This document shows positions 2,374-44,649 of a DNA stretch of 64,000 nt, piece after piece. The position numbers and the translations under genes are program-made. Under the pieces are notes generated by a model that ran no database searches, was not told where the DNA came from, and saw only the letters and a program-made list of their open reading frames with translations. Position 1 is the stretch's first letter. Each line of letters begins with the position of its first letter. Source of the DNA: a virus; IMG/VR virus record IMGVR_UViG_3300046559_000436, positions 1 through 64,000 of that record; one strand, given 5' to 3'.

Positions 2374-3849
2374 GTGAATTCTCCGTTTCTGTCAAACAGT
2401 CCTCTCCTGGAAGCTAAGCTACATCAGCTGGAAGAGCTTCGAAAGCTCAAGGAAGAACTAGACTTCCTTTCCACCATCCCGAACCAGATCAATCGGGAAT
2501 ACGCCCCGACCGCTCGACCAGCCCAGTACCCGCCGGACGACCCCCGCCATCTTTGTTCGACCTGCGAAGATGCGGAGGGGATTGATCCGTTGTGGAACAT
2601 CTGGCTGCTCCTGGCCGGTCGTGGGTTCGGTAAGACCTTCGTCGGGGCCAGCTGGACCGTGCATAACGCGCTGGCTATCCCGAATTCTGAGTGGCTGGTT
2701 ACGGCTCCCACATTCAGAGATGTTCAGAGAACGTGCTTCGAGGGCGACTCCGGCATCCTCAAGCGGTTCAACGAAGGGGAGATGAAGCAGTATCTCCGAA
2801 ATGAACTGCTGATCAAGCTGTCCAACGGCAGTAAGATTCACGGAGTGTCGGCCGATGAACCGGAGCGAGCCCGAGGGATGAACCTGTGGGGGGCTTGGGC
2901 CGACGAGATCGGATCGTGGAGACGACCGGAGATCTGGTACGAGGGCATCATCCCGGCCATCCGCAAGGGTGAGCACCCTCGGGTAGTGGTCACCACGACC
3001 CCACGACCTACAGCGCTGATCAAGGACCTGTACAGTCGAAGAGACGGAACTGTTCATCTGACTCGCGGTTCCACCTTCGACAACCAACAGCACCTGTCGG
3101 CGATAGCTCTTGCCGAACTTAAGCGCCGATATGATGGAACCAGGCTCGGCCAGCAGGAACTATACGGTGCTCTTCTTGAGGACATCGAAGGTGCGCTGTT
3201 CCGGCGTGACTTGATCGACAACGCTCGAATCACCAGGGACGAGGTCCCTGCGGACTTGGTTCAGTTGGTGGTAGCGGTTGACCCGGCTGTGACCAGCGAC
3301 GAGACCAGCGACCTCACCGGCATCGTGGTGGTGGGGTGCGACGAGAAGGGACACGGTTACGTCCTAGCGGATCGGTCCATGAAGGGCACCCCCGATCAGT
3401 GCATGAGGGAGGCGGCCAGAACCTACCACGAGTTCCATGCTGACACCATCGTCGCAGAGGTGAACAACGGCGGGGACTACATCGGGTCCGTTCTGAAGCA
3501 TGTTGATCCTTTTGTACCAATCAAGGTTGTTCGAGCGTCTCGCGGCAAGGAGATCCGGGCGGAGCCGACTGCGGCTCTGTACGAACAGGGTCGAATCCAC
3601 CACGTCGGAATGTTCGCCAACCTCGAAGACGAGATGTGCGACTGGATTCCCGGAGTTACCAAGAAATCGCCCGACCGCGTGGACGCGCTGGTGTGGGCCG
3701 TAAGCGGCCTGAACGGGTTGAGCGGGGGTGGGTGGGCCAGCGCGTACGGAGTGGTCTACTGCGACGCGTGCGAAAAGCCGTTCGTGTTGAAGATCAACCC
3801 AGAAACATGCCCCAAGTGTTCGGCTCCGCACAGGTACGAAGCTGCTTAG
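2374..3849 (+). CDS. terL: Terminase large subunit with C-terminal zinc ribbon
   Basis: The DNA-packaging motor, 491 aa. The ATPase domain has Walker A AGRGFGKT at residues 81-88, Walker B ending in D177-E178 (AWADEIG) and a coupling motif VTTTP at 206-210. The nuclease domain has acidic residues at D303 (AVDPAVTSD), near E362 (AEVNNGGD) and near D442 (DRVDALVWA). It ends in an extra module, CDAC-x(11)-CPKC, a likely zinc ribbon not usual for TerL. GTG start with a weak ribosome site. No small terminase subunit is obvious upstream. Confidence 0.93.
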   Translation: MNSPFLSNSPLLEAKLHQLEELRKLKEELDFLSTIPNQINREYAPTARPAQYPPDDPRHLCSTCEDAEGIDPLWNIWLLLAGRGFGKTFVGASWTVHNALAIPNSEWLVTAPTFRDVQRTCFEGDSGILKRFNEGEMKQYLRNELLIKLSNGSKIHGVSADEPERARGMNLWGAWADEIGSWRRPEIWYEGIIPAIRKGEHPRVVVTTTPRPTALIKDLYSRRDGTVHLTRGSTFDNQQHLSAIALAELKRRYDGTRLGQQELYGALLEDIEGALFRRDLIDNARITRDEVPADLVQLVVAVDPAVTSDETSDLTGIVVVGCDEKGHGYVLADRSMKGTPDQCMREAARTYHEFHADTIVAEVNNGGDYIGSVLKHVDPFVPIKVVRASRGKEIRAEPTAALYEQGRIHHVGMFANLEDEMCDWIPGVTKKSPDRVDALVWAVSGLNGLSGGGWASAYGVVYCDACEKPFVLKINPETCPKCSAPHRYEAA

Positions 3850-4970: not shown

Positions 4971-5348
4971 ATGGGATTTCTCCCGAACCTGGCCAGCTTG
5001 ACCGCTGCTGTTGGTTCTCAGCTGAACGTGACCTACGTTCTGCACAACGACGACGACACCCTGATGAACATAACGAACAAGACGTTCGAATTCTCCATCA
5101 GGACGGACCCAGGTCAGCTCTCCGCAACACCCCCTCTGGTAAGCGTCAATAGCACGGCAAGCACGGCCAGTGGTACGATTGCGGTAACCACCAACACCTC
5201 CACAGTCGCAGTGTCAGTCAGCGCAGCCGCTATGAACACTCTGACTCAACGTCAGTATTTCTACACGCTGTGGATGGACCAGGGACAGAACGACGCTACC
5301 GCGATGGTGTCCGGGGTGTTGTTTGTGCAGTTCACTTCAGTCCCTTAG
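4971..5348 (+). CDS. Beta-rich structural protein, probable fibre-associated
   Basis: A 125-residue Thr/Ser/Val-rich protein with alternating beta pattern. The middle (FEFSIRTDPG) and end (QYFYTLWMDQGQND) resemble the beta-sandwich modules at the N termini of baseplate and fibre proteins. It is directly upstream of the large fibre. A role as fibre adaptor or chaperone is inference from position and composition. Confidence 0.5.
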   Translation: MGFLPNLASLTAAVGSQLNVTYVLHNDDDTLMNITNKTFEFSIRTDPGQLSATPPLVSVNSTASTASGTIAVTTNTSTVAVSVSAAAMNTLTQRQYFYTLWMDQGQNDATAMVSGVLFVQFTSVP

Positions 5349-5358
5349 GGGGAACTCT

Positions 5359-8300
5359 GTGGCCAACGTGTACATCACCAGCCCAGGGACTTCCGGTCCT
5401 CGAGGGAACGGTTGGCTGACCGGCATTGGGGCACCACTAAACTCGGTCGGGTTCGACGGTGACCTTTATCTGGATACCACTAACACTGGTATCTTCTACG
5501 GTCCTAAGGCCAACGGGGCGTGGGGCTCCCCCAATCAGTTCACAATCCTGAAGTCGAATACCACAGCCACTACCAATCCGCATGTCACGGACGACAGCAG
5601 CCTTGGTTACGTAGACGGTTCTTTCTGGATTAACAATGCCTCTGTGCCGCCGACCTACTTCGTGGCTTCATCCGTTGCCGTCGGAAACGCAGTGTGGACC
5701 CCCGTTTTGCCAGTCGGGACCACTGCGGGAACCGTAGCGGCGGGTAACGATTCCAGGGTCGTCGGAGCGGCTCAGAAGGCCGCCAATCTCTCCGACCTGT
5801 TCGATGCTCCTACCGCCCGAAATAACTTGGGCTTGGGATCTGCCGCAACAGAGAATGTCGGAACTACGGCGGGGACAGTTGCGGCCGGTGATGACTCCCG
5901 GATCACGGGGGCTGCGCAGAAGTCGGCCAACCTCTCCGATCTCGCCGACGCGCCGACGTCTCGAACCAACCTAGGTCTGGGGACGTCAGCCACAGAGAAC
6001 GTCGGAACTGCGGCCGGTACCGTAGCAGCTGGGAACGACTCTCGGATCACGGGGGCCATCCAGACCGGCCAGGCTGCAGCCGGTGATCTGGCCGGAACCT
6101 ACCCGAATCCGACTGTTGTAATCACTCACCTTTCCGCGCCGCTCCCGATTGGTCAGGGGGGGACCGGTTCGTCCACACAGAACTTCGTTGACCTGACCGG
6201 TGGTCAGAATATCGGCGGCGTCAAGAACTTCACGTCGTCGCCAACAGTCCCCACGCCCTCAGGGGCCACGGACGTGGTCAACAAGTCTTACGCGGATTCC
6301 ATTGCCTCAGGTCTGTCGGTCAAGACCTCCAGCGTCGCGGCTACCGCGTCAGCGTTGCCGTCCAACACGTACAACAACGGAGCCAGTGGTGTCGGCGCGA
6401 CTCTGACAGCCACATCGACCGGAACGCTCACCGTGGACGGCCATCTAACCGTTCTTAACGATTTGATCCTCGTTAAGAACGAGGCAGCCCCGGCCAACAA
6501 CGGCACCTATAAGGTGACCACAGCGGGCGCGGTGGGCGTGGCGTACGTGCTGACTCGAACCACCGACATGGACCAGGCAGCTGAGGTCCCAGGGGCTTTT
6601 ACCTTTGTCACCAGTGGATCTACCAACACCAGCACCGGTTGGATCGTCTTTGGTGCGGGCCCGTACGTAGTCGGTACCACGGCGATAAACTGGACGCTGT
6701 TCTCTAACGCGTCGACGATCTCCGTCGGAACCGGCCTTACGCAGGTCGGAACCGTCATCAGCCTGACGGTTCCGGTGTCCGCAGGTAACCTGCCTTCGGC
6801 CACCACCAGTGCCTTCGGGATCGTGGAGATCGACGGCACTGCGAGCGATATCCAGCCGCTGGGTTCTCAGGCAGCTGGAGCAACGGGCAAGGTCGCCGAC
6901 GCCGGACACGTTCACCCCACAACCGGCGTGACGCTCCATTCCGAAGCTGCAACGACCGTAGTCACTGAGACCGGATACGGGCAGTCGAGCACTACGGGCG
7001 CAGCGCTAACCTACGCTCGTGAAGACCACACCCACGGCAGCCCGTCGTTGACAACCAACCCCCCGTCTACTGTGGAGACGATCGGGATTGGTGGGGTGCT
7101 GGGTGCGGCCACGACCCCAGCCCGAGCTGACCACGTCCACCCGATGGCAGCCGCCGGGGCTCCGCACTCGTCTGCGGTCGGTGACGCTCAGTCCACGGGG
7201 GTGTCCAGCAATCCGGCGGCCAGTGACCACATCCACGCTCGTGAGGCTTTCGGCGGCCCGACGTCCGAGACCACCTATGGCCTGACGCCCAACGGCGGAG
7301 CGGCAACGTCGGTCTCCCATTCCGATCACACACATGGCACTCCGTCCCTCACCACTTCGGCTCCGGCCACTACCGAGGCTATCGGAACTGCGGCCTCTCT
7401 AGGAGTGGCGGTCACCCCCGCGCTGGCCGATCATGTGCACCCGATGGCCTCTGCCGGTCTGCCAACAGTGTCTTCAGTAGGCGACACGGCGACCACAGGC
7501 GTGGCCATCACGTTCTCGGCGTCCAACCACGTTCACGGCCGGGAGAGTTTTGGGGCGGTCACCCCGCTGGCTTCTTTCGGGACGGCGTCTGCCAACGGCA
7601 CTGCCACCAGTACGTCCCACTCCGACCACGTGCACGGCGCTCCCGCTCTGCCCATTGCGTCAGCCGGTACGCAGGGCGTCGTACAGTTGACACACGACCT
7701 GGGCGGCACGTCCGCGTCACCCAACGTGGTTGGTATTACGGGCGTGCCGGTATCCGGAACACCGGCCTTCGGTCAAGGCATCTTCGCTTCGTCCGGGTCT
7801 GCCGCAGCCTGGCAGATCAACCCCTACCTATTCGGAGACACTGGCGTAGCTAACGGTGGCGTGATCGCGGCCAATGCCGGGCACCCAACGCAGTTCAACA
7901 TCAGTGCTGGTGTGGGATACGTCGTAGACAACGTGACCAACCCGGCAGCTCCCACGGTCACACGAGTTACTATCAACGCACAGACGATTGACCTGACCAC
8001 CTTCGTCGCTTCTCCTGCGCCGACCACGCGCACAACCAACTGGTGGATGGTCAACACCTCAGGAACAGTTATTGTTCAAGCCACGCTGCCGACCAACGTG
8101 CAGCGTCGAACGAATCTGGTTCTAGGTGTCACCGGCTCTGTTGTCAGCACCGGAGTCCTATTCAATATCCAGCCGGTTCTGACTGTCCAGTCTCAGCCCA
8201 TGAACCAGTTGTATGACCTGATGGATGCGCTCGGCCCATTTAATGAGGTCGGTAACGTGATAAGCCCCAACGGCGCTACTCTGTCGTTCAACAAGAGCGC

Positions 8301-8757
8301 GGGCACTTGCTTCGACATGTCGTTCAATTCAGGCATCAACCTGAATGATCCGCACATTACCACCAACCCGGCTGAAACTCCCACATCCTTCCGTAACTCC
8401 ACCCAGCTGGCGGGGTCTCAAGGCTCGTTGGTTACCCTGGTTGATGTGACACACTACGATGTTGGTGGTGTGGTCACTCTGGTTCCTGGTGGGGGCGCCA
8501 CAACCACCATTCAGAGGGTGTGGCTATTCGGCACACAGGTGGCCACCGCTCAGGTTGCTATTCAGTACGGACAAGCTTCCTACGGATCTTTGGCAAATGC
8601 CAAGGCGGCCCTTGGTTTGGAGACCTACGTGGTGAACCCGGACTACACCGGGATTGCCATCTTGTTGGGTTGGATTGGTGTCACCAAGTCCTGCACCAGC
8701 CTGGCTGACACCGCCAACTGCTTCCTCGTTCAGGCCCCCAAGTTTGCCGTTCCGTAA
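5359..8757 (+). CDS. Large tail-fibre protein with repeats and His-x-His motifs
   Basis: About 1132 aa. The start is GTG 5359, with aggggg upstream. The N-terminal part has two and a half copies of a roughly 48-residue repeat (AGTVAAGNDSR, then NLSDL and LGLGSAATENVGT), typical of phage fibre shafts. Residues about 516-760 carry eight His-x-His motifs (HVH, HTH, HIH) spaced about 35 residues apart. The C-terminal region is a Thr/Val-rich beta domain that may contact the host surface. It lies between terminase and portal rather than with the other adhesion genes at 30-37 kb. Fibre identity is firm, the receptor unknown. Confidence 0.8.
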   Translation: MANVYITSPGTSGPRGNGWLTGIGAPLNSVGFDGDLYLDTTNTGIFYGPKANGAWGSPNQFTILKSNTTATTNPHVTDDSSLGYVDGSFWINNASVPPTYFVASSVAVGNAVWTPVLPVGTTAGTVAAGNDSRVVGAAQKAANLSDLFDAPTARNNLGLGSAATENVGTTAGTVAAGDDSRITGAAQKSANLSDLADAPTSRTNLGLGTSATENVGTAAGTVAAGNDSRITGAIQTGQAAAGDLAGTYPNPTVVITHLSAPLPIGQGGTGSSTQNFVDLTGGQNIGGVKNFTSSPTVPTPSGATDVVNKSYADSIASGLSVKTSSVAATASALPSNTYNNGASGVGATLTATSTGTLTVDGHLTVLNDLILVKNEAAPANNGTYKVTTAGAVGVAYVLTRTTDMDQAAEVPGAFTFVTSGSTNTSTGWIVFGAGPYVVGTTAINWTLFSNASTISVGTGLTQVGTVISLTVPVSAGNLPSATTSAFGIVEIDGTASDIQPLGSQAAGATGKVADAGHVHPTTGVTLHSEAATTVVTETGYGQSSTTGAALTYAREDHTHGSPSLTTNPPSTVETIGIGGVLGAATTPARADHVHPMAAAGAPHSSAVGDAQSTGVSSNPAASDHIHAREAFGGPTSETTYGLTPNGGAATSVSHSDHTHGTPSLTTSAPATTEAIGTAASLGVAVTPALADHVHPMASAGLPTVSSVGDTATTGVAITFSASNHVHGRESFGAVTPLASFGTASANGTATSTSHSDHVHGAPALPIASAGTQGVVQLTHDLGGTSASPNVVGITGVPVSGTPAFGQGIFASSGSAAAWQINPYLFGDTGVANGGVIAANAGHPTQFNISAGVGYVVDNVTNPAAPTVTRVTINAQTIDLTTFVASPAPTTRTTNWWMVNTSGTVIVQATLPTNVQRRTNLVLGVTGSVVSTGVLFNIQPVLTVQSQPMNQLYDLMDALGPFNEVGNVISPNGATLSFNKSAGTCFDMSFNSGINLNDPHITTNPAETPTSFRNSTQLAGSQGSLVTLVDVTHYDVGGVVTLVPGGGATTTIQRVWLFGTQVATAQVAIQYGQASYGSLANAKAALGLETYVVNPDYTGIAILLGWIGVTKSCTSLADTANCFLVQAPKFAVP

Positions 8758-9203: not shown

Positions 9204-12200
9204 TTGTCGAGTCGTAGATCTATCATGGCTGCCAACAAGGGAATCTCGGTTCCTGTTGGTGGGATGGGCAGTGGTGGCGGTGCCCCTTCGGCGGGTGGTA
9301 GCTGGGGGTCAGGCGCTGCAGCTATGGCCGGTGGGATGCAGTCACACGGCTGGGCCGCAGCTTACGGTCAACCCATGCCGGGTCTTCCACGGCTTCCCGA
9401 CACCTTCACCAACGGTGCGTTCGGCCCTCTTGCTCCGATCCTTCCAGTTCCTGTCGATATGCCGGAAGAGGACACCGGCTACGCTGAAGCTCGCCTTCAG
9501 GAGTACCAGGTTGGCTGGAACCTTCCGGTAGGAACCCCAGGGGCCGAGGGGATCAAACTAACCGACTTCGGCACGTTGAAGACGCTGGCCGACCTGTACT
9601 CGGTGGCCAGAGCCTGCATTCAACTCCGTAAGTCGGAGATCCGTGGTATCGAGTGGGACATCCTGCCCACTCGTGACGCCTCGAAGGCCATGCGAGGTTC
9701 GCCGTCCCTGGCCAGATCGTTCGGTGCACGTAGAGCGGAAGCCATCCGGTTCTTCAAGCGACCCGACCCGGACTTCTTCAACTGGTCCAGCTTCCTCGAC
9801 GCGCTAAGCGAAGAGGTGTTCGTCTTTGACGCCTTGTCGCTGCTGATCCGGCCCAAGTGGGCCAGAGGGAACGGTCTGGGGCTTCTGGGGTCGGATCTCG
9901 ACTCGTTGTCGCTGATCTCCGGACCCACCATCCGGCCACTGTTCGGCATGCATGGTGAGCGGCCACGGCCCCCGGCCCCAGCGTACCAGCAGTACCTGTA
10001 CGGTGTTCCCCGAACCGACTTGATGTCCCTGATCACAGAGCGTGACCTGGAGTCCGGCCAACTGACCGGGTCGGAGATGGGTCAGTTCCAGGCCGATCAG
10101 CTTCTGTACCTGCCGATGGTGGCCAGGCGATGGACCCCGTACGGATTCCCGCCGATCGAGCGTGCTCTGATTCCGGTTCTATCCGGTCTACAGAAGCAGG
10201 GCTTCCAGTACGACTACTACCGTGAAGGTTCGGTTCCGGCGGTCTACATCTCGCCGGGTGGCGCCAATGCCAACATGACCCCGAACCAGATCCGCGAACT
10301 CCAGGATGCCCTCAACGCCATCGCGGGTGACCCAGCCTGGAAGCACAAGATCATCGTGCTACCGGCCGACTCGAAGGTCATGCCGCAGAAGCAGACCGAG
10401 CTGGCGGATCAGTTCGACGAGATCGTGATGAACCAGGTGTGCATGGCGTTCGACGTCCAGCCTATGGAGCTGGGCATCATGCCTAAGGTGTCCACCACGG
10501 TCAGCCCTGGTGCGGCCAACCAGATGTCCAAGGCTAGCCAGACGATCCATGATCGGAAGGCCACCAAGCCGTTCCTGTCGTTCGTGTCGGATATCATGAA
10601 CGTGATCCTTCAGGAGGTGGCCGGTCAATCGGACATGCGGTTTATGTTCGAAGGTCTGGAGGAGGGTGATGATGAAGCGACCAAGACCAAGACGCTGATC
10701 GACCAGGTCGGCGCGGCTCTGCGTTCGATCGACGAGGCCCGAGAGGAGCTGGATCTTCAGCCCTGGGGTCTTCCCGAAACTAGCGACCCTGGTTGGGCCA
10801 CCGCCACTGGTTGGACTCCTCTAACCGAGGCTGTTGCCGCCGCACGCAGTGGAACCGAAGAAGGTTCGGTCTTCGTCGACCCGGCGGGGGCGATCACGGG
10901 CGACACGGCTCCGGATTCCGCTGGTGCCTCGGCTTCTGGTGGCGCTGGCACCCCAGTTCCGGACCAGCCCGAGGCAGCGAACGGAGAGCCCACCCCTCCG
11001 ACCGTTCCTGGCATCCAGGCCGAACCAGGGTCTCCTCAGGCTCCGTCAGACCCGACCATGGCCACTCCGGCGGGCGGGGTCCAGATCCCCGGCCACGCAG
11101 CTGCGGAAGCGGCAGCGCCGGACGTTCCGTCGGCCATGGCGAAGGGCTTCAAGGGCCCTCACAAGGATTTCCAGGAGCGTCGGGCCACCCGGGTCGAGAA
11201 GCACTCCGCAAAGGTCGAGGAACGGCTCTCGGAGCTTGTCGAAGGGGTGCGGGACGGAAAGATCGACCGCAACAAGGCAGTCGCACTCGGTGTGACCGTT
11301 CTGGCGGCCGGTTACGCGGACATCGTAGACAAGGCCATTAACGACGCTGACAGCGACCTAGGGCTGAATCTGGACTCTCGGGACCACCGGCTCGGGACTG
11401 ACGTGGCGTGGCGGGAGAGCGAGAAGCAGCGACAGTGGCTTGACGGTCTGATCCAGAAGGCAATCGACGACCCTAACAAGAAGCTCAAGGGTCGAATCAG
11501 TGCCTATGCCCGGAGTCTGCAGGCGGTGTACAACCGCATGTACGTCAACACGGCCAAGGGGACGGGTCAGGACTGGCGTATCACGTGGAGACTCGGCCCG
11601 ACCGAGCACTGTGACTCGTGCATCGAGAGAGACGGCAAGCAGTACGACCTCAACACCCTGCCAGGAATCCCGGGCGACGGTGGGTTTGATGACATCTGCG
11701 CCGGTGGCCCCAAGTGTGGATGCTCTCTCGAATTCGAGGAGGCTGACCGCAAGGACGCAGACGTAAATCCCGTCAAGAACCCGGGCAAGATCGACACCTT
11801 GGATCTCAAGGACCTGCACGAGCGAGTGGCTGAGCTGGCCAACTCCCGCATGCAGGTGGTTGGAAAGCACCCAGCCCAGCTGCTCAAGCCTGAGGACATC
11901 AGCGAGACGGACGTTCAGCAGATTTTCGCCAGCAAGACCAGGGCGATTCTGTCCGAGCTTGAGGCCATGACCCGGCATGTCAAGAAGGGTCGGTTGGTGT
12001 CCGAATGGGAGCCGCGTCACCTGTCCTCGGATGTGCTGGCCCGGGTCAACGAGTACATAGCTAAGGGCGCCGATGTGGAGACCGCATCGCAGATGGTTCG
12101 CCAGCAGCGCTTGGTGAGTACCGACGGGGTAGAGTATTGGGCTGACTTGATCGGGGACTGGCGGCCCGGTCAGATTTCGGAAGGTCGGGGCGGGGGCTAC

Positions 12201-13184
12201 GAGAAGCGTCCGCACGACGTGAACGACATTCAGGTCGCGTCCAAGGGGGCCAGCGACCTGGACGACCCGAACCCGGTGGCAGCTGAACACGTCGAAAACA
12301 TGATGATGGGGGATTTCAAGCCTTCCGGAATCAAGTGGATCAAGGACACTCAGTGGGTCGGTCCTATCAAGGTCGAGCCAGATCGAGTCGATCAGGATGA
12401 CATCGACGGGTGGGCGGCCAGCCACGAGCCCGAGAAGATCGCCAGGTTCGTCAAGATGCTGGAGAAGGGCAAGAAGATCAAGCCCGCCATCAGCATCCGA
12501 CAGACTGAGGGTGACAGTCGGATCAAGATCGTGGACGGTCACCACCGGTTCCTGGCCTACAAGCAGGTAGATGAGCCGTTCATCACTTATCTCGGGTTCG
12601 TCCCGGAGGGTGACGACCGGTGGGAGAGCACTCACTCTTACCAGCTGGCCAAGGACGGAAAGCCTTCTGAGTCCGCCCATGCCGTCAAGAGCCACGGAGA
12701 GGGTGAGAAGGTCTCGAAGGAGTCGGTGAACTACCGCCCGGCGGATGACCCAAACCAGCGATGTGGCAACTGCTCGATGTTCACATCGGAGACCAACACA
12801 TGCACCTTGGTTGACGGGGCCATTCGGGCCATCGACGTCTGTGACGAATGGGACCCGGTCGACACCAACAAGGCTCTGGCGCCCCAGGCTCTAGCTGCTC
12901 CGTCCCAAACGATCCCGGTCCAGACTCCTCAGGAGCCGCTCGACGAAGAGACGATGATGGCGGATCCGACGCTGATCGACTTCTTTGAAACAGGGGATGG
13001 AGCCAGTCAGATCAAGTGGGGGACCACTGGCGACATCTCGCGTTGCGTGACATTGGCAACGCAGTCGTTGGGGCTGGAGAACGCACAGCAGTTCTGTCAG
13101 GTTCGATACGCCAAGATGACCGGCCAGACAGCTAGCGGTCTGATTCATCAGAGCCCCGATGCTGGTGCCGGTGGTGGTAGCTAG
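9204..13184 (+). CDS. Portal protein fused to MuF-like, ParB-like and Cys4 modules
   Basis: About 1326 aa. Residues to about 520 are portal-like (EYQVGWNLP, RKSEIRGIEWDI, YGFPPIERAL, DVQPMELGIM). A Pro/Ala-rich linker follows, then a MuF-type head domain with HCDSCIERDGKQYDLN, P-x-PGDGG and CGGPKCGCS-like spacing. Next is a ParB/sulfiredoxin-like domain (KIVDGHHRFLAYKQ), then a four-Cys module CGNCSMF-x(n)-CTLVDG-x(n)-VCDEWDP. The portal forms the DNA channel of the head, and MuF proteins are carried inside or near it. The TTG at 9204 has GGAGG 7 nt upstream; an ATG at 9225 is the alternative start. Such a long fusion is unusual. Confidence 0.85.
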   Translation: MSSRRSIMAANKGISVPVGGMGSGGGAPSAGGSWGSGAAAMAGGMQSHGWAAAYGQPMPGLPRLPDTFTNGAFGPLAPILPVPVDMPEEDTGYAEARLQEYQVGWNLPVGTPGAEGIKLTDFGTLKTLADLYSVARACIQLRKSEIRGIEWDILPTRDASKAMRGSPSLARSFGARRAEAIRFFKRPDPDFFNWSSFLDALSEEVFVFDALSLLIRPKWARGNGLGLLGSDLDSLSLISGPTIRPLFGMHGERPRPPAPAYQQYLYGVPRTDLMSLITERDLESGQLTGSEMGQFQADQLLYLPMVARRWTPYGFPPIERALIPVLSGLQKQGFQYDYYREGSVPAVYISPGGANANMTPNQIRELQDALNAIAGDPAWKHKIIVLPADSKVMPQKQTELADQFDEIVMNQVCMAFDVQPMELGIMPKVSTTVSPGAANQMSKASQTIHDRKATKPFLSFVSDIMNVILQEVAGQSDMRFMFEGLEEGDDEATKTKTLIDQVGAALRSIDEAREELDLQPWGLPETSDPGWATATGWTPLTEAVAAARSGTEEGSVFVDPAGAITGDTAPDSAGASASGGAGTPVPDQPEAANGEPTPPTVPGIQAEPGSPQAPSDPTMATPAGGVQIPGHAAAEAAAPDVPSAMAKGFKGPHKDFQERRATRVEKHSAKVEERLSELVEGVRDGKIDRNKAVALGVTVLAAGYADIVDKAINDADSDLGLNLDSRDHRLGTDVAWRESEKQRQWLDGLIQKAIDDPNKKLKGRISAYARSLQAVYNRMYVNTAKGTGQDWRITWRLGPTEHCDSCIERDGKQYDLNTLPGIPGDGGFDDICAGGPKCGCSLEFEEADRKDADVNPVKNPGKIDTLDLKDLHERVAELANSRMQVVGKHPAQLLKPEDISETDVQQIFASKTRAILSELEAMTRHVKKGRLVSEWEPRHLSSDVLARVNEYIAKGADVETASQMVRQQRLVSTDGVEYWADLIGDWRPGQISEGRGGGYEKRPHDVNDIQVASKGASDLDDPNPVAAEHVENMMMGDFKPSGIKWIKDTQWVGPIKVEPDRVDQDDIDGWAASHEPEKIARFVKMLEKGKKIKPAISIRQTEGDSRIKIVDGHHRFLAYKQVDEPFITYLGFVPEGDDRWESTHSYQLAKDGKPSESAHAVKSHGEGEKVSKESVNYRPADDPNQRCGNCSMFTSETNTCTLVDGAIRAIDVCDEWDPVDTNKALAPQALAAPSQTIPVQTPQEPLDEETMMADPTLIDFFETGDGASQIKWGTTGDISRCVTLATQSLGLENAQQFCQVRYAKMTGQTASGLIHQSPDAGAGGGS

Positions 13185-13417
13185 TGGTTGACGGTAGGGA
13201 TGTAGACCGGGCCAAAGAACTCTTGGTGGAGTTGGCTGAGATATTGAACAAGCTCCACCAGACCGGCACCCCGATCGAGTTGAAGTTTGACAGCGTCTTT
13301 TCCGATGTAGGTTACTGCCTGCAGAACGAAGACGGTTCGTGGCGGGCAGCGGTTAAGACAGGAAAACCCCCCAAGTGGTGGTCCAAACATGATCGTCACA
13401 ATCCGGATGATATTTAG
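13184..13417 (+). CDS. Hypothetical small protein (77 aa)
   Basis: The GTG start overlaps the portal stop (TAGTG), so translation is probably coupled. Helical N-terminal half (RAKELLVELAEILNKLHQTG), with a Trp- and Lys-rich end. No family is recognised. It sits between portal and protease and may be a head-assembly accessory, though this is inferred from position only. Confidence 0.5.
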   Translation: MVDGRDVDRAKELLVELAEILNKLHQTGTPIELKFDSVFSDVGYCLQNEDGSWRAAVKTGKPPKWWSKHDRHNPDDI

Positions 13418-16193: not shown

Positions 16194-18041
16194 ATGGCAA
16201 TGGAACTCCTCGACGCCGAGAAGATCGGCCCGGCCGGTATCACCGGCTCGGTCATCAACGAGGCCGCTCGCGAGGCCGGTAACTACGGCAACACTCACGA
16301 GATGCTCAAGCACCGTGTCACCGGCCTGGTCAAGGGCGCTGGCTTCGCGGCTCCGGGTGGCAACACCCCACTGACCGACAACGGCCAGATCCTGACCAAG
16401 GCCCACCAGGCCGCCCTCGACATCCGGACCTCGACCTACCAGGGCTACTCGGACCGCCAGTCGGTGGTCAAGAGCCTGAACGGTGGGTTCCTGAACCAGT
16501 TCGGCTACCTCAAGTCCGCTCTGAGTGCTCCGTCCATCGGGGAGCAGGTGCAGCAGCTCGTTGGCGGCATGCCGGGCGGCGCTGACGCTCTGAAGTCGTT
16601 CACGGCGGGCAACCTGGGCATCGGCTCGATCTACGGCCTGGTCCCGTTCGACCTGCTCGCGCCATCGCGCCTGATCTACCCGATGTACACCGTCTTCCGG
16701 AACAAGTTCCCACGGCCGCAGGGCCAGGGCACCAGCCGGATCGAGAAGGTGTTCACCGGCATCTCCGGTTCGCAGACCGGCGGCCAGGGCGTCGTCGACA
16801 TCTCGATCCCGGAGCTGGTCCAGGCCGGTGCTTCGATGTCGAGCACGCAGTGGCCGCTGAACCTGCCGAGCCAGGGCTCGCAGACGCAAGTGACTCTGAA
16901 CGTCCCCTACAAGTTCTTCGGCCTCACCGAGTCCCTGTCGTGGCTGTCGCAGTTCAGCGGTCAGGGCTTCGAGGACATCTCGGCCCTCGCGAACCTCATC
17001 CTCCTCCAGGAGATGATGCTCGGCGAGGAGTACCAGATGATCGCTGGCTCCAGCACCACGCTGAGCGCTCCGACCGTGGTCTCTCTCACCGCCCGCACCG
17101 CTGGTTCCGGTGAGACCACCGTTGGCACCAACGCCAACTTCACGGTCTTCGTCACCGCGACCAACTACTACGGTGAGACCACCGCCGCGCAGTCCTCCAC
17201 CATCGCCACCACCACCGGCCAGGTCGTCGACCTCACCGCCACTCTCCCGCCCGGCGGCCAGCAGCTCAACATCTACGTCTCCGTCAACGCCTCTCCGACT
17301 CGCGCCAACGCGTTCCTGGTCAAGTCCGGCGTCGGCGGCTCCAAGTTCACCGTTCAGGGTACCATCCCTGGCTCGGGCGCCAACCCTCCCGCCGCCGACA
17401 CCGGGACCGGTTCTCAGAACCGCATGGAGGGTCTGATCCCGACCCTGACCGGCAAGTCCAACACCTCGGGCATCTACCCGGCCAACTGGCAGGGCGGCTA
17501 CGTCAACCAGAACGTCGGCACCCACCTCGGCTTCAACGCCATCTACACCGCGCTGCAGGCCCTGTGGGACGGCGCGCAGGGCTCCGGCAACAACCCGGGT
17601 GCGTTCCGTGCCGACCCGGCGGAGATCGTCGGCGAGGGTGGCGACATCATGCGCCTCTCGAACGACGTGATCTCCCAGGGCGCGGCCACCAACTACCGCC
17701 TGTTCCTCGACCAGCCTGACGTGGGCGGCGTTCGGGTCGGTGCGGCGGTCTCCGAGTTCCAGAACCCGATCACCCGCTCTGTGCTCAAGCTGGTCGTCCA
17801 CCCGTGGCTGACCCAGGGCACCGCGATGCTGATGTCCTACCAGCTCCCGCAGACCTGGTCGAACGTCTCCAACGCGTGGGAGATGACGGTCGTCCAGGAC
17901 TACATGTCCATCGCCTGGCCGGTCATCGACGCGACCTTCCGCTACTCGATCTTCCTCTACGGCGCGATGGTCGCCCACGCCCCGCAGTACTCGGGCATCC
18001 TCCAGGGTCTCCAGATCTCGGACACCACTCCGTTCAGCTAA
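16194..18041 (+). CDS. Major capsid protein with inserted Ig/FN3-like domain
   Basis: A 615-residue shell protein, inferred from its place after the protease-scaffold, its large size and HK97-like features: a helical N-arm, a loop-rich middle and a C-terminal strand region (QNPITRSVLKLVVHPWL, FRYSIFLYGAMVAHAP). Residues about 288-405 are a Thr/Val/Gly-rich beta insertion resembling an Ig or FN3 fold (GETTVGTNANFTVFVTATNY). Codons end almost only in C or G, more strictly than in neighbouring genes, consistent with very high expression. A hairpin follows the stop. Confidence 0.85.
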   Translation: MAMELLDAEKIGPAGITGSVINEAAREAGNYGNTHEMLKHRVTGLVKGAGFAAPGGNTPLTDNGQILTKAHQAALDIRTSTYQGYSDRQSVVKSLNGGFLNQFGYLKSALSAPSIGEQVQQLVGGMPGGADALKSFTAGNLGIGSIYGLVPFDLLAPSRLIYPMYTVFRNKFPRPQGQGTSRIEKVFTGISGSQTGGQGVVDISIPELVQAGASMSSTQWPLNLPSQGSQTQVTLNVPYKFFGLTESLSWLSQFSGQGFEDISALANLILLQEMMLGEEYQMIAGSSTTLSAPTVVSLTARTAGSGETTVGTNANFTVFVTATNYYGETTAAQSSTIATTTGQVVDLTATLPPGGQQLNIYVSVNASPTRANAFLVKSGVGGSKFTVQGTIPGSGANPPAADTGTGSQNRMEGLIPTLTGKSNTSGIYPANWQGGYVNQNVGTHLGFNAIYTALQALWDGAQGSGNNPGAFRADPAEIVGEGGDIMRLSNDVISQGAATNYRLFLDQPDVGGVRVGAAVSEFQNPITRSVLKLVVHPWLTQGTAMLMSYQLPQTWSNVSNAWEMTVVQDYMSIAWPVIDATFRYSIFLYGAMVAHAPQYSGILQGLQISDTTPFS

Positions 18042-44314: not shown

Positions 44315-44386
44315 GTGCTGGAAGTCGTCGGCGGGACGACGCCCCCTAAACCGGGGAGACGGTGGGTTCGAGCCCCACTCAGCATA
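44315..44386 (+). tRNA. tRNA-like element, anticodon uncertain
   Basis: Good T-arm (GTGGG-TTCGAGC-CCCAC), 7-bp acceptor stem with G-U pairs at both ends (GTGCTGG/TCAGCAT) and D stem GTCG/CGAC. The anticodon stem is only 4 bp (CCCC/GGGG) with loop CTAAACC, which would give AAA. Not a regular tRNA; may be degraded or specialised. Confidence 0.45.
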
Positions 44387-44649
44387 CGAATGGTCACACC
44401 AAGTGCACTTGGCGCATTCGAACACCCCGACATACAGTGACCTCTGGTCGGATCGCGTACTAAACCCGTCCATGCTTACCCTTACGGGTCGGCGGCGTTC
44501 AGGGAGACGGGGTACCGGGATAGAGTGAACGTACTCCCGGGAAGGTGGGCCGGACGTCTGTATGCCGCAGTTTACGGGCACACGGGTAACAGTCAGAATT
44601 GCGAGACTAGAATCCGGGAGCGGGAGGGGTACCCCGCACAACTTAACAA

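Follow-up and report, generated by a model that had tools for sequence, protein, structure and literature searches.

Introduction

Fusions of the phage portal protein, which forms the ring that DNA passes on its way into and out of the head, to other domains are already on record. Portal-MuF chains have been reported in Microbacterium phages (PMC7302621) and one is found in Arthrobacter phage Sonali, while PMC9503650 records portal-NUDIX fusions and interprets fusions of portal or MuF to Nudix and 2H domains as effectors that are packaged in the head and injected. Here we describe a portal gene from an uncultured phage of the IMG/VR collection (record IMGVR_UViG_3300046559_000436, 97,260 bases), of which a stretch of 64,000 nt, hereafter the window, was analyzed. 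Its product joins a portal core, a MuF domain (minor capsid / SPP1 gp7-like), a ParB/sulfiredoxin (Srx)-fold domain and a four-cysteine (four-Cys) module in a single chain. A preliminary description had taken portal, MuF and small nuclease-like proteins to be encoded usually by separate genes, a view that is only partly right given the portal-MuF and portal-NUDIX fusions cited above.

The actinophages (Microbacterium EA/EB, Arthrobacter Sonali and Mufasa8) likewise carry portal and MuF in one chain, and their portals are homologous to that of the window. Sonali and Mufasa8 also have a NUDIX domain between portal and MuF, but the ParB/Srx, four-Cys and C-terminal modules are missing from them, their chains measure ~1000 aa and their portals are only ~26-28% identical. 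Polyvalent and head-delivered effector proteins (PMC5512222 and PMC9503650) are likewise multidomain, mosaic and tied to head genes; among them are fusions of MuF or portal to PBECR, 2H, Nudix and ADP-ribosyltransferase (ART) domains, and ParB-type domains also occur. The window family similarly unites several domains of effector type in a single chain, together with virion genes. The ParB domains of polyvalent proteins are DdrB-like, and the passages considered mention no portal-ParB fusion, whereas here one portal lineage has a ParB-like module as a near-fixed part. In the MuF polymorphic toxins of temperate phages a head protein also serves as the N-terminal carrier of variable C-terminal domains, but MuF is a separate gene after the portal gene (PMC5576092); here the portal is the carrier, and a query with the ParB-like module returned no prophage relatives. 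Finally, fusions of the ParB-CTPase fold, including SerK and SbnI, also show a ParB/Srx fold without a helix-turn-helix (HTH), and SerK has the identical DGHHR motif, although its catalytic Glu30 is not conserved in the window module; the main text of this survey mentions no portal, MuF or capsid fusion (PMC12704722).

In the literature searched, which excluded subscription papers and supplements, a fusion of portal and ParB/Srx was nowhere described. Fusions of the portal to MuF or NUDIX are already known, as are polyvalent head proteins as a general idea (PMC5512222); what is new, on our evidence, is the near-fixed pairing of portal and ParB/Srx module and the rapid swapping of the modules around it.

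Results

One chain under purifying selection

The fusion gene (Table 1) is one open frame with zero internal stops. GGAGG lies 7 nt 5' of the TTG at 9204, which is most likely the start codon, and the closest relative, from another metagenome (L001, 67% identity), which also encodes the complete chain, has GTG at the aligned position behind an identical GGCCGGAGGCCA context. Between the two chains the structured modules have a ratio of nonsynonymous to synonymous substitution rates (dN/dS) of ~0.07-0.34 where calculable, a rough estimate with dS near saturation. This comparison shows that the predicted portal, MuF and ParB/Srx-fold modules share one chain under purifying selection. The 1326-residue fusion proposed in the preliminary description is thereby borne out, by the uninterrupted frame and by the module matches; that description lacks a flexible linker, the helical segment 911-1008, which is conserved, and a C-terminal domain with a match to PHROG 6439.

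Other cargo is exchanged around a ParB-like module almost fixed in the portal lineage

We assembled two independent samples of relatives, one seeded with the ParB motif and the other with portal motifs. The portal-seeded sample comprises 63 distinct complete portal open reading frames (ORFs) of 831-2505 aa (median 1381), with portal cores 53-88% identical to that of the window. The search for the same fusion in other phages, proposed beforehand as a check, thus succeeded: the ParB-like module stands in the same chain as the portal in 58 of the 63. Among the remainder, the module of L148 is encoded by the gene that follows and overlaps the portal gene, and two (L153 and L157) have it ~8-15 kb downstream on the same contig, at loci L045/L046 and L084 according to contig coordinates. 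The ParB-seeded sample, which presupposes no portal, again places the module mostly within portal ORFs.

The rest of the chain is far less constant. NUDIX occurs in 42 of the 63 ORFs, the four-Cys module in 21, the C-terminal domain in 4 and MuF in at least 12, a minimum since the MuF profile misses subtypes that Pfam detects (L013, L020, L021, L025 and L173), and the modules appear in 15 combinations or orders. A portal tree of 61 rows requires at least 24 architecture changes, a number that missed module detections can inflate, and near-identical portals (L118 and L119) bear different cargo. Active-site motifs are retained nonetheless (DGxHR in 97/98, the Nudix box in 73/75). Cargo also includes a zeta-toxin-like kinase domain (L025, 8.5e-23), 2H phosphoesterases (L011, L173 and L043, with matches including 4.3e-7 and 1e-10) and an ART (L043, 4.5e-19). 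These comparisons show the predicted ParB-like module to be almost fixed to this portal lineage, while MuF, NUDIX, four-Cys and other cargo come, go and reorder.

Some relatives split the chain. In L043 and L044 the break falls precisely where MuF meets the conserved helical segment, and a GTGA stop/start overlap and a Shine-Dalgarno sequence are present there; L065 and L070 are split at other places, likewise with overlapping GTGA. Given these natural splits, the modules appear to be gene-sized units whose tethering is not obligatory in every relative. Beside the split portal of L043, a 1635-aa gene (L043:6681-11585) combines a ParB-like module with a 2H phosphoesterase of weak Acb1 similarity and the ART. 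Separately, a 2162-aa protein (L045:7677-14162 and L046:7677-14162) holds a ParB-like module at residues 113-243, and the rest of it is without PHROG or Pfam match.

Outside this lineage, a portal query of GTDB genomes returned six distant portals, mostly in Chloroflexota genomes; these are about 27% identical, 447-567 aa long and carry none of the extra modules. The ParB-module query gave 213 pattern matches in GTDB genomes, among them 0 relatives and no prophage relatives, and tblastn against 50,697 isolate phage records found nothing convincing for the module (the best match of the consensus query, at 0.06, was a short part-match).

Free-serine kinases are the nearest solved relatives of the ParB/Srx module in sequence

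The predicted structure of the ParB/Srx module is confident (predicted local distance difference test, pLDDT, mostly 90-97), as is the MuF model (mostly 85-96), while the portal (mean 51) and four-Cys (about 45) models are poor. The top 24 PDB fold matches of the ParB/Srx domain are sulfiredoxin, PadC, Noc, KorB, SbnI and a SerK homologue, with probabilities of 0.93-1.00 but E-values of 0.09-0.4, weak because the query was a multidomain chain of 727 residues. In a search with a profile of this domain alone, SerK ranks first (2.8e-5) and SbnI next (3e-3), ahead of any partition protein; the DGHHR pentapeptide is identical at SerK 69-73, and the NCBI SerK model NF053625 is matched by 25/25 aligned ParB modules (best 4.3e-7), all falling far short of its curated cut-off of 380, with the window at 12.3 bits. 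Direct membership in the SerK serine kinases was not accepted, given this score and the loss of Glu30. The domain has DGHHR instead of a GERR box, and neither an HTH nor a dimerization domain follows it; its C-terminal neighbor among the chains is the four-Cys module, NUDIX or the chain end. With box II different and the HTH missing, a ParB partition role was rejected.

Portal, MuF and four-Cys modules

On the window, Pfam Phage_portal reaches 35.7 bits, just below its cut-off of 39.1, and it matched at E <= 0.01 in 33/33 aligned proteins. When the low-confidence portal model was compared with solved structures (Foldseek), all 50 of the 50 matches listed were portal, connector or neck proteins (best 2.3e-8). 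In several relatives, in-frame insertions of some 270-420 residues break up the portal core (ORFs L036:3140-6382, L041:2159-7507, L050:949-6114, L062:2628-7655, L096:3384-8717, L079:3249-8414, L078:1872-8423 and L169:2567-7840); those read show intein features, with a Cys start and TEIxT and, in some, a terminal HNC or GN. The insert sites vary between relatives, and L078 seemingly has two.

Pfam PF04233 (Phage_Mu_F) stays below threshold on the window and matches two of nine proteins of the same MuF subtype (best E 0.022). Viral structure matches of the MuF model are minor capsid and head-morphogenesis proteins (best 1.3e-6), and the pattern CxxCxxRDG...LPGxPG...CxC is conserved in all 14 of 14 relatives with the window's subtype. 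The four-Cys module, which shuffles independently among relatives, retains its cysteines in 35/35 of them and possibly binds metal; a HIPIP identity was not adopted, the match reaching only E 0.19. A short linker separates the module, which ends at residue 1220, from the C-terminal domain, which begins at 1246.

Gene neighborhood

The small ORF 13184-13417, right after the fusion gene, has no informative match in Pfam or PHROG profile searches. The next large gene, an extended one of 899 aa, has a prohead-protease-like N-terminus, a Cys-rich stretch that resembles a zinc ribbon and long parts rich in Pro and Gln, and its product is a possible processing enzyme. The place of the major capsid gene, at 16194-18041, is taken by a 615-aa protein that matches PHROG 13692 (unknown, 9.7e-53) and has an apparent Ig-like insert at about residues 290-400. 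Upstream, a tail-fibre-like gene (5323-8757; PHROG 16641, 2.6e-68) sits in an unusual place between the large terminase gene (2374-3849) and the portal gene. A tRNA-Phe with the anticodon AAA, uncommon for Phe, is predicted at 44315-44387.

Table 1. Segments of the portal fusion chain and the downstream protease-like gene, in window coordinates
Feature	Residues	Position	Strand	Evidence or remark
Whole portal fusion gene	1-1326	9204..13184	+	TTG start to stop, 1326 aa, ~143 kDa
Gly/Ala/Ser-rich N-terminal segment	1-60	9204..9383	+	
Portal core	61-549	9384..10850	+	PHROG 2662 4.9e-42; Pfam Phage_portal 7.2e-9; fold matches
Flexible Pro/Gly/Ala/Ser/Thr-rich linker (68% of residues)	550-652 (103 residues)	10851..11159	+	pLDDT <50
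MuF (minor capsid / SPP1 gp7-like) domain with CxxC and CxC	653-846	11160..11741	+	
Helical connector	847-1008	11742..12227	+	911-1008 ("REG907") conserved in nearly all relatives
ParB/sulfiredoxin-fold domain	1025-1160	12276..12683	+	DGHHR 1111-1115, WAASH 1070-1074, THxxQ 1143-1147
Four-Cys module CxxC-x(n)-C-x(n)-C	1161-1220	12684..12863	+	metal-binding by inference
Small helical C-terminal domain	1246-1326	12939..13181	+	PHROG 6439
Large gene, prohead-protease-like N-terminus	899 aa	13449..16148	+	PHROG 9427 1.2e-6, PHROG 80 9.5e-4

Discussion

We propose that the portal C-terminus has been turned into a carriage of interchangeable modules that serve in the earliest phase of infection, a picture that, taken whole, we judge about evenly poised between true and false. 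The C-terminal crown of portals points into the head interior, an orientation that we take from general portal knowledge because the portal model is poor. With the C-terminus so placed, the ring would hold up to twelve flexible arms within the head, and the modules would become part of the particle as it assembles, with no need for targeting of their own. The twelve copies per ring that the preliminary description expected would follow from portal biology. The ParB/Srx module would most likely bind a nucleoside triphosphate (NTP) through DGHHR and may be a phosphotransferase or an NTP-consuming enzyme. Released by the downstream prohead protease, or still tethered at the portal, the modules would act on nucleotides of the host, or on targets linked to nucleotides, as infection begins, their purpose being host takeover or the blunting of nucleotide-signal defenses. 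SPP1 gp7 binds the portal, enters the procapsid and supports initiation of infection (PMC6316719), and the MuF module probably contacts DNA and portal in the same manner. A more elaborate version, in which the ring is a dedicated equimolar effector-loading platform with an obligate nucleotide-handling ParB/Srx module, the other slots being swapped in an arms race with nucleotide-based host defenses and the cargo cut off and delivered with the DNA, seems unlikely to us.

Several points weigh against the carriage proposal. Delivery is the weakest step: the ring itself is not injected, and since a portal subunit cannot be injected either, delivery requires cleavage, for which no site or motif was found in the chain. 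The splits in L043 and L044 show, at the level of gene structure, that tethering is dispensable in some relatives. In the ParB/Srx module the column of the SerK catalytic Glu30 is an invariant Ala (A51 of A2; alignment confidence there ~0.8), which makes serine-kinase chemistry specifically unlikely.

The alternative that fares best is a polyprotein that the downstream protease cuts into a portal and free head proteins, so that the fusion exists only at the gene level and a 12:1 stoichiometry is irrelevant in the virion. It overlaps with the carriage proposal, which itself needs cleavage for delivery, and we regard it as a tentative but real contender. The prohead-protease-like gene next downstream, the 103-residue disordered linker after the portal core and the relatives whose chain breaks right after MuF would all fit; the missing cleavage motif does not, nor does retention of the fusion in 58/63 ORFs, which hints that equimolar incorporation matters.

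Rather doubtful is a second alternative, in which the modules remain attached and have their task within the particle, in portal assembly, DNA organization at the portal, packaging or release, with no injected effector. The portal ring does remain in the head, SPP1 gp7, a MuF protein, acts in infection while binding the portal (PMC6316719), and the near-universal presence of the helical segment 911-1008 and of the ParB-like module in the portal lineage is what one would expect of a structural part. Yet the rapid turnover and reordering of cargo, the intact Nudix boxes and the toxin-like domains (zeta, ART) suit effectors better, and the distant prophage portals manage without any of the extra modules.

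That the ParB-like domain acts on DNA in packaging or entry, as the preliminary description suggested, is not supported by the sequence, and we consider a nicking nuclease or clamp improbable. DGHHR is typical of ParB-type toxin domains, for which a nuclease activity has been predicted as a possibility (PMC3482391), the DdrB-like ParB domains of phage heads have been predicted to be NTP-regulated DNases (PMC5512222), and the module has weak ParBc_2/DndB/GmrSD similarities. However, PMC3482391 also maintains that ParB came to be labeled a nuclease through erroneous assumptions, and it places sulfiredoxin, a metal-dependent phosphotransferase, within the ParB superfamily; in a large survey, ParB folds bound CTP, ATP or GTP, dependent on the box-II arginine (PMC12704722). 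Because the module has no HTH, no dimerization domain and no GERR box, and because its closest solved relatives by sequence are the free-serine kinases SerK and SbnI, a role in NTP binding or phosphotransfer appears to fit it better than one on DNA.

Lastly, a sequencing or assembly error joining separate genes, against which the preliminary description had cautioned, has a negligible chance of being true, because L001, from a different metagenome and 67% identical, and dozens of further independent relatives encode the fused chain.

Our findings suggest a second task for the portal, that of carrying proteins that act when infection begins. Should the modules be present in the virion, the stoichiometry of the portal would set the number of effectors at no more than twelve per particle, whereas SPP1 gp7 is present in one to two copies (PMC5576092). 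The chain would then offer a simple route for loading phage heads with proteins, and the exchange of head cargo could be followed in a lineage whose portal hardly changes. The comparison also points to an uncharacterized ParB/Srx subfamily that appears closest to small-molecule kinases, not to DNA-partition proteins.

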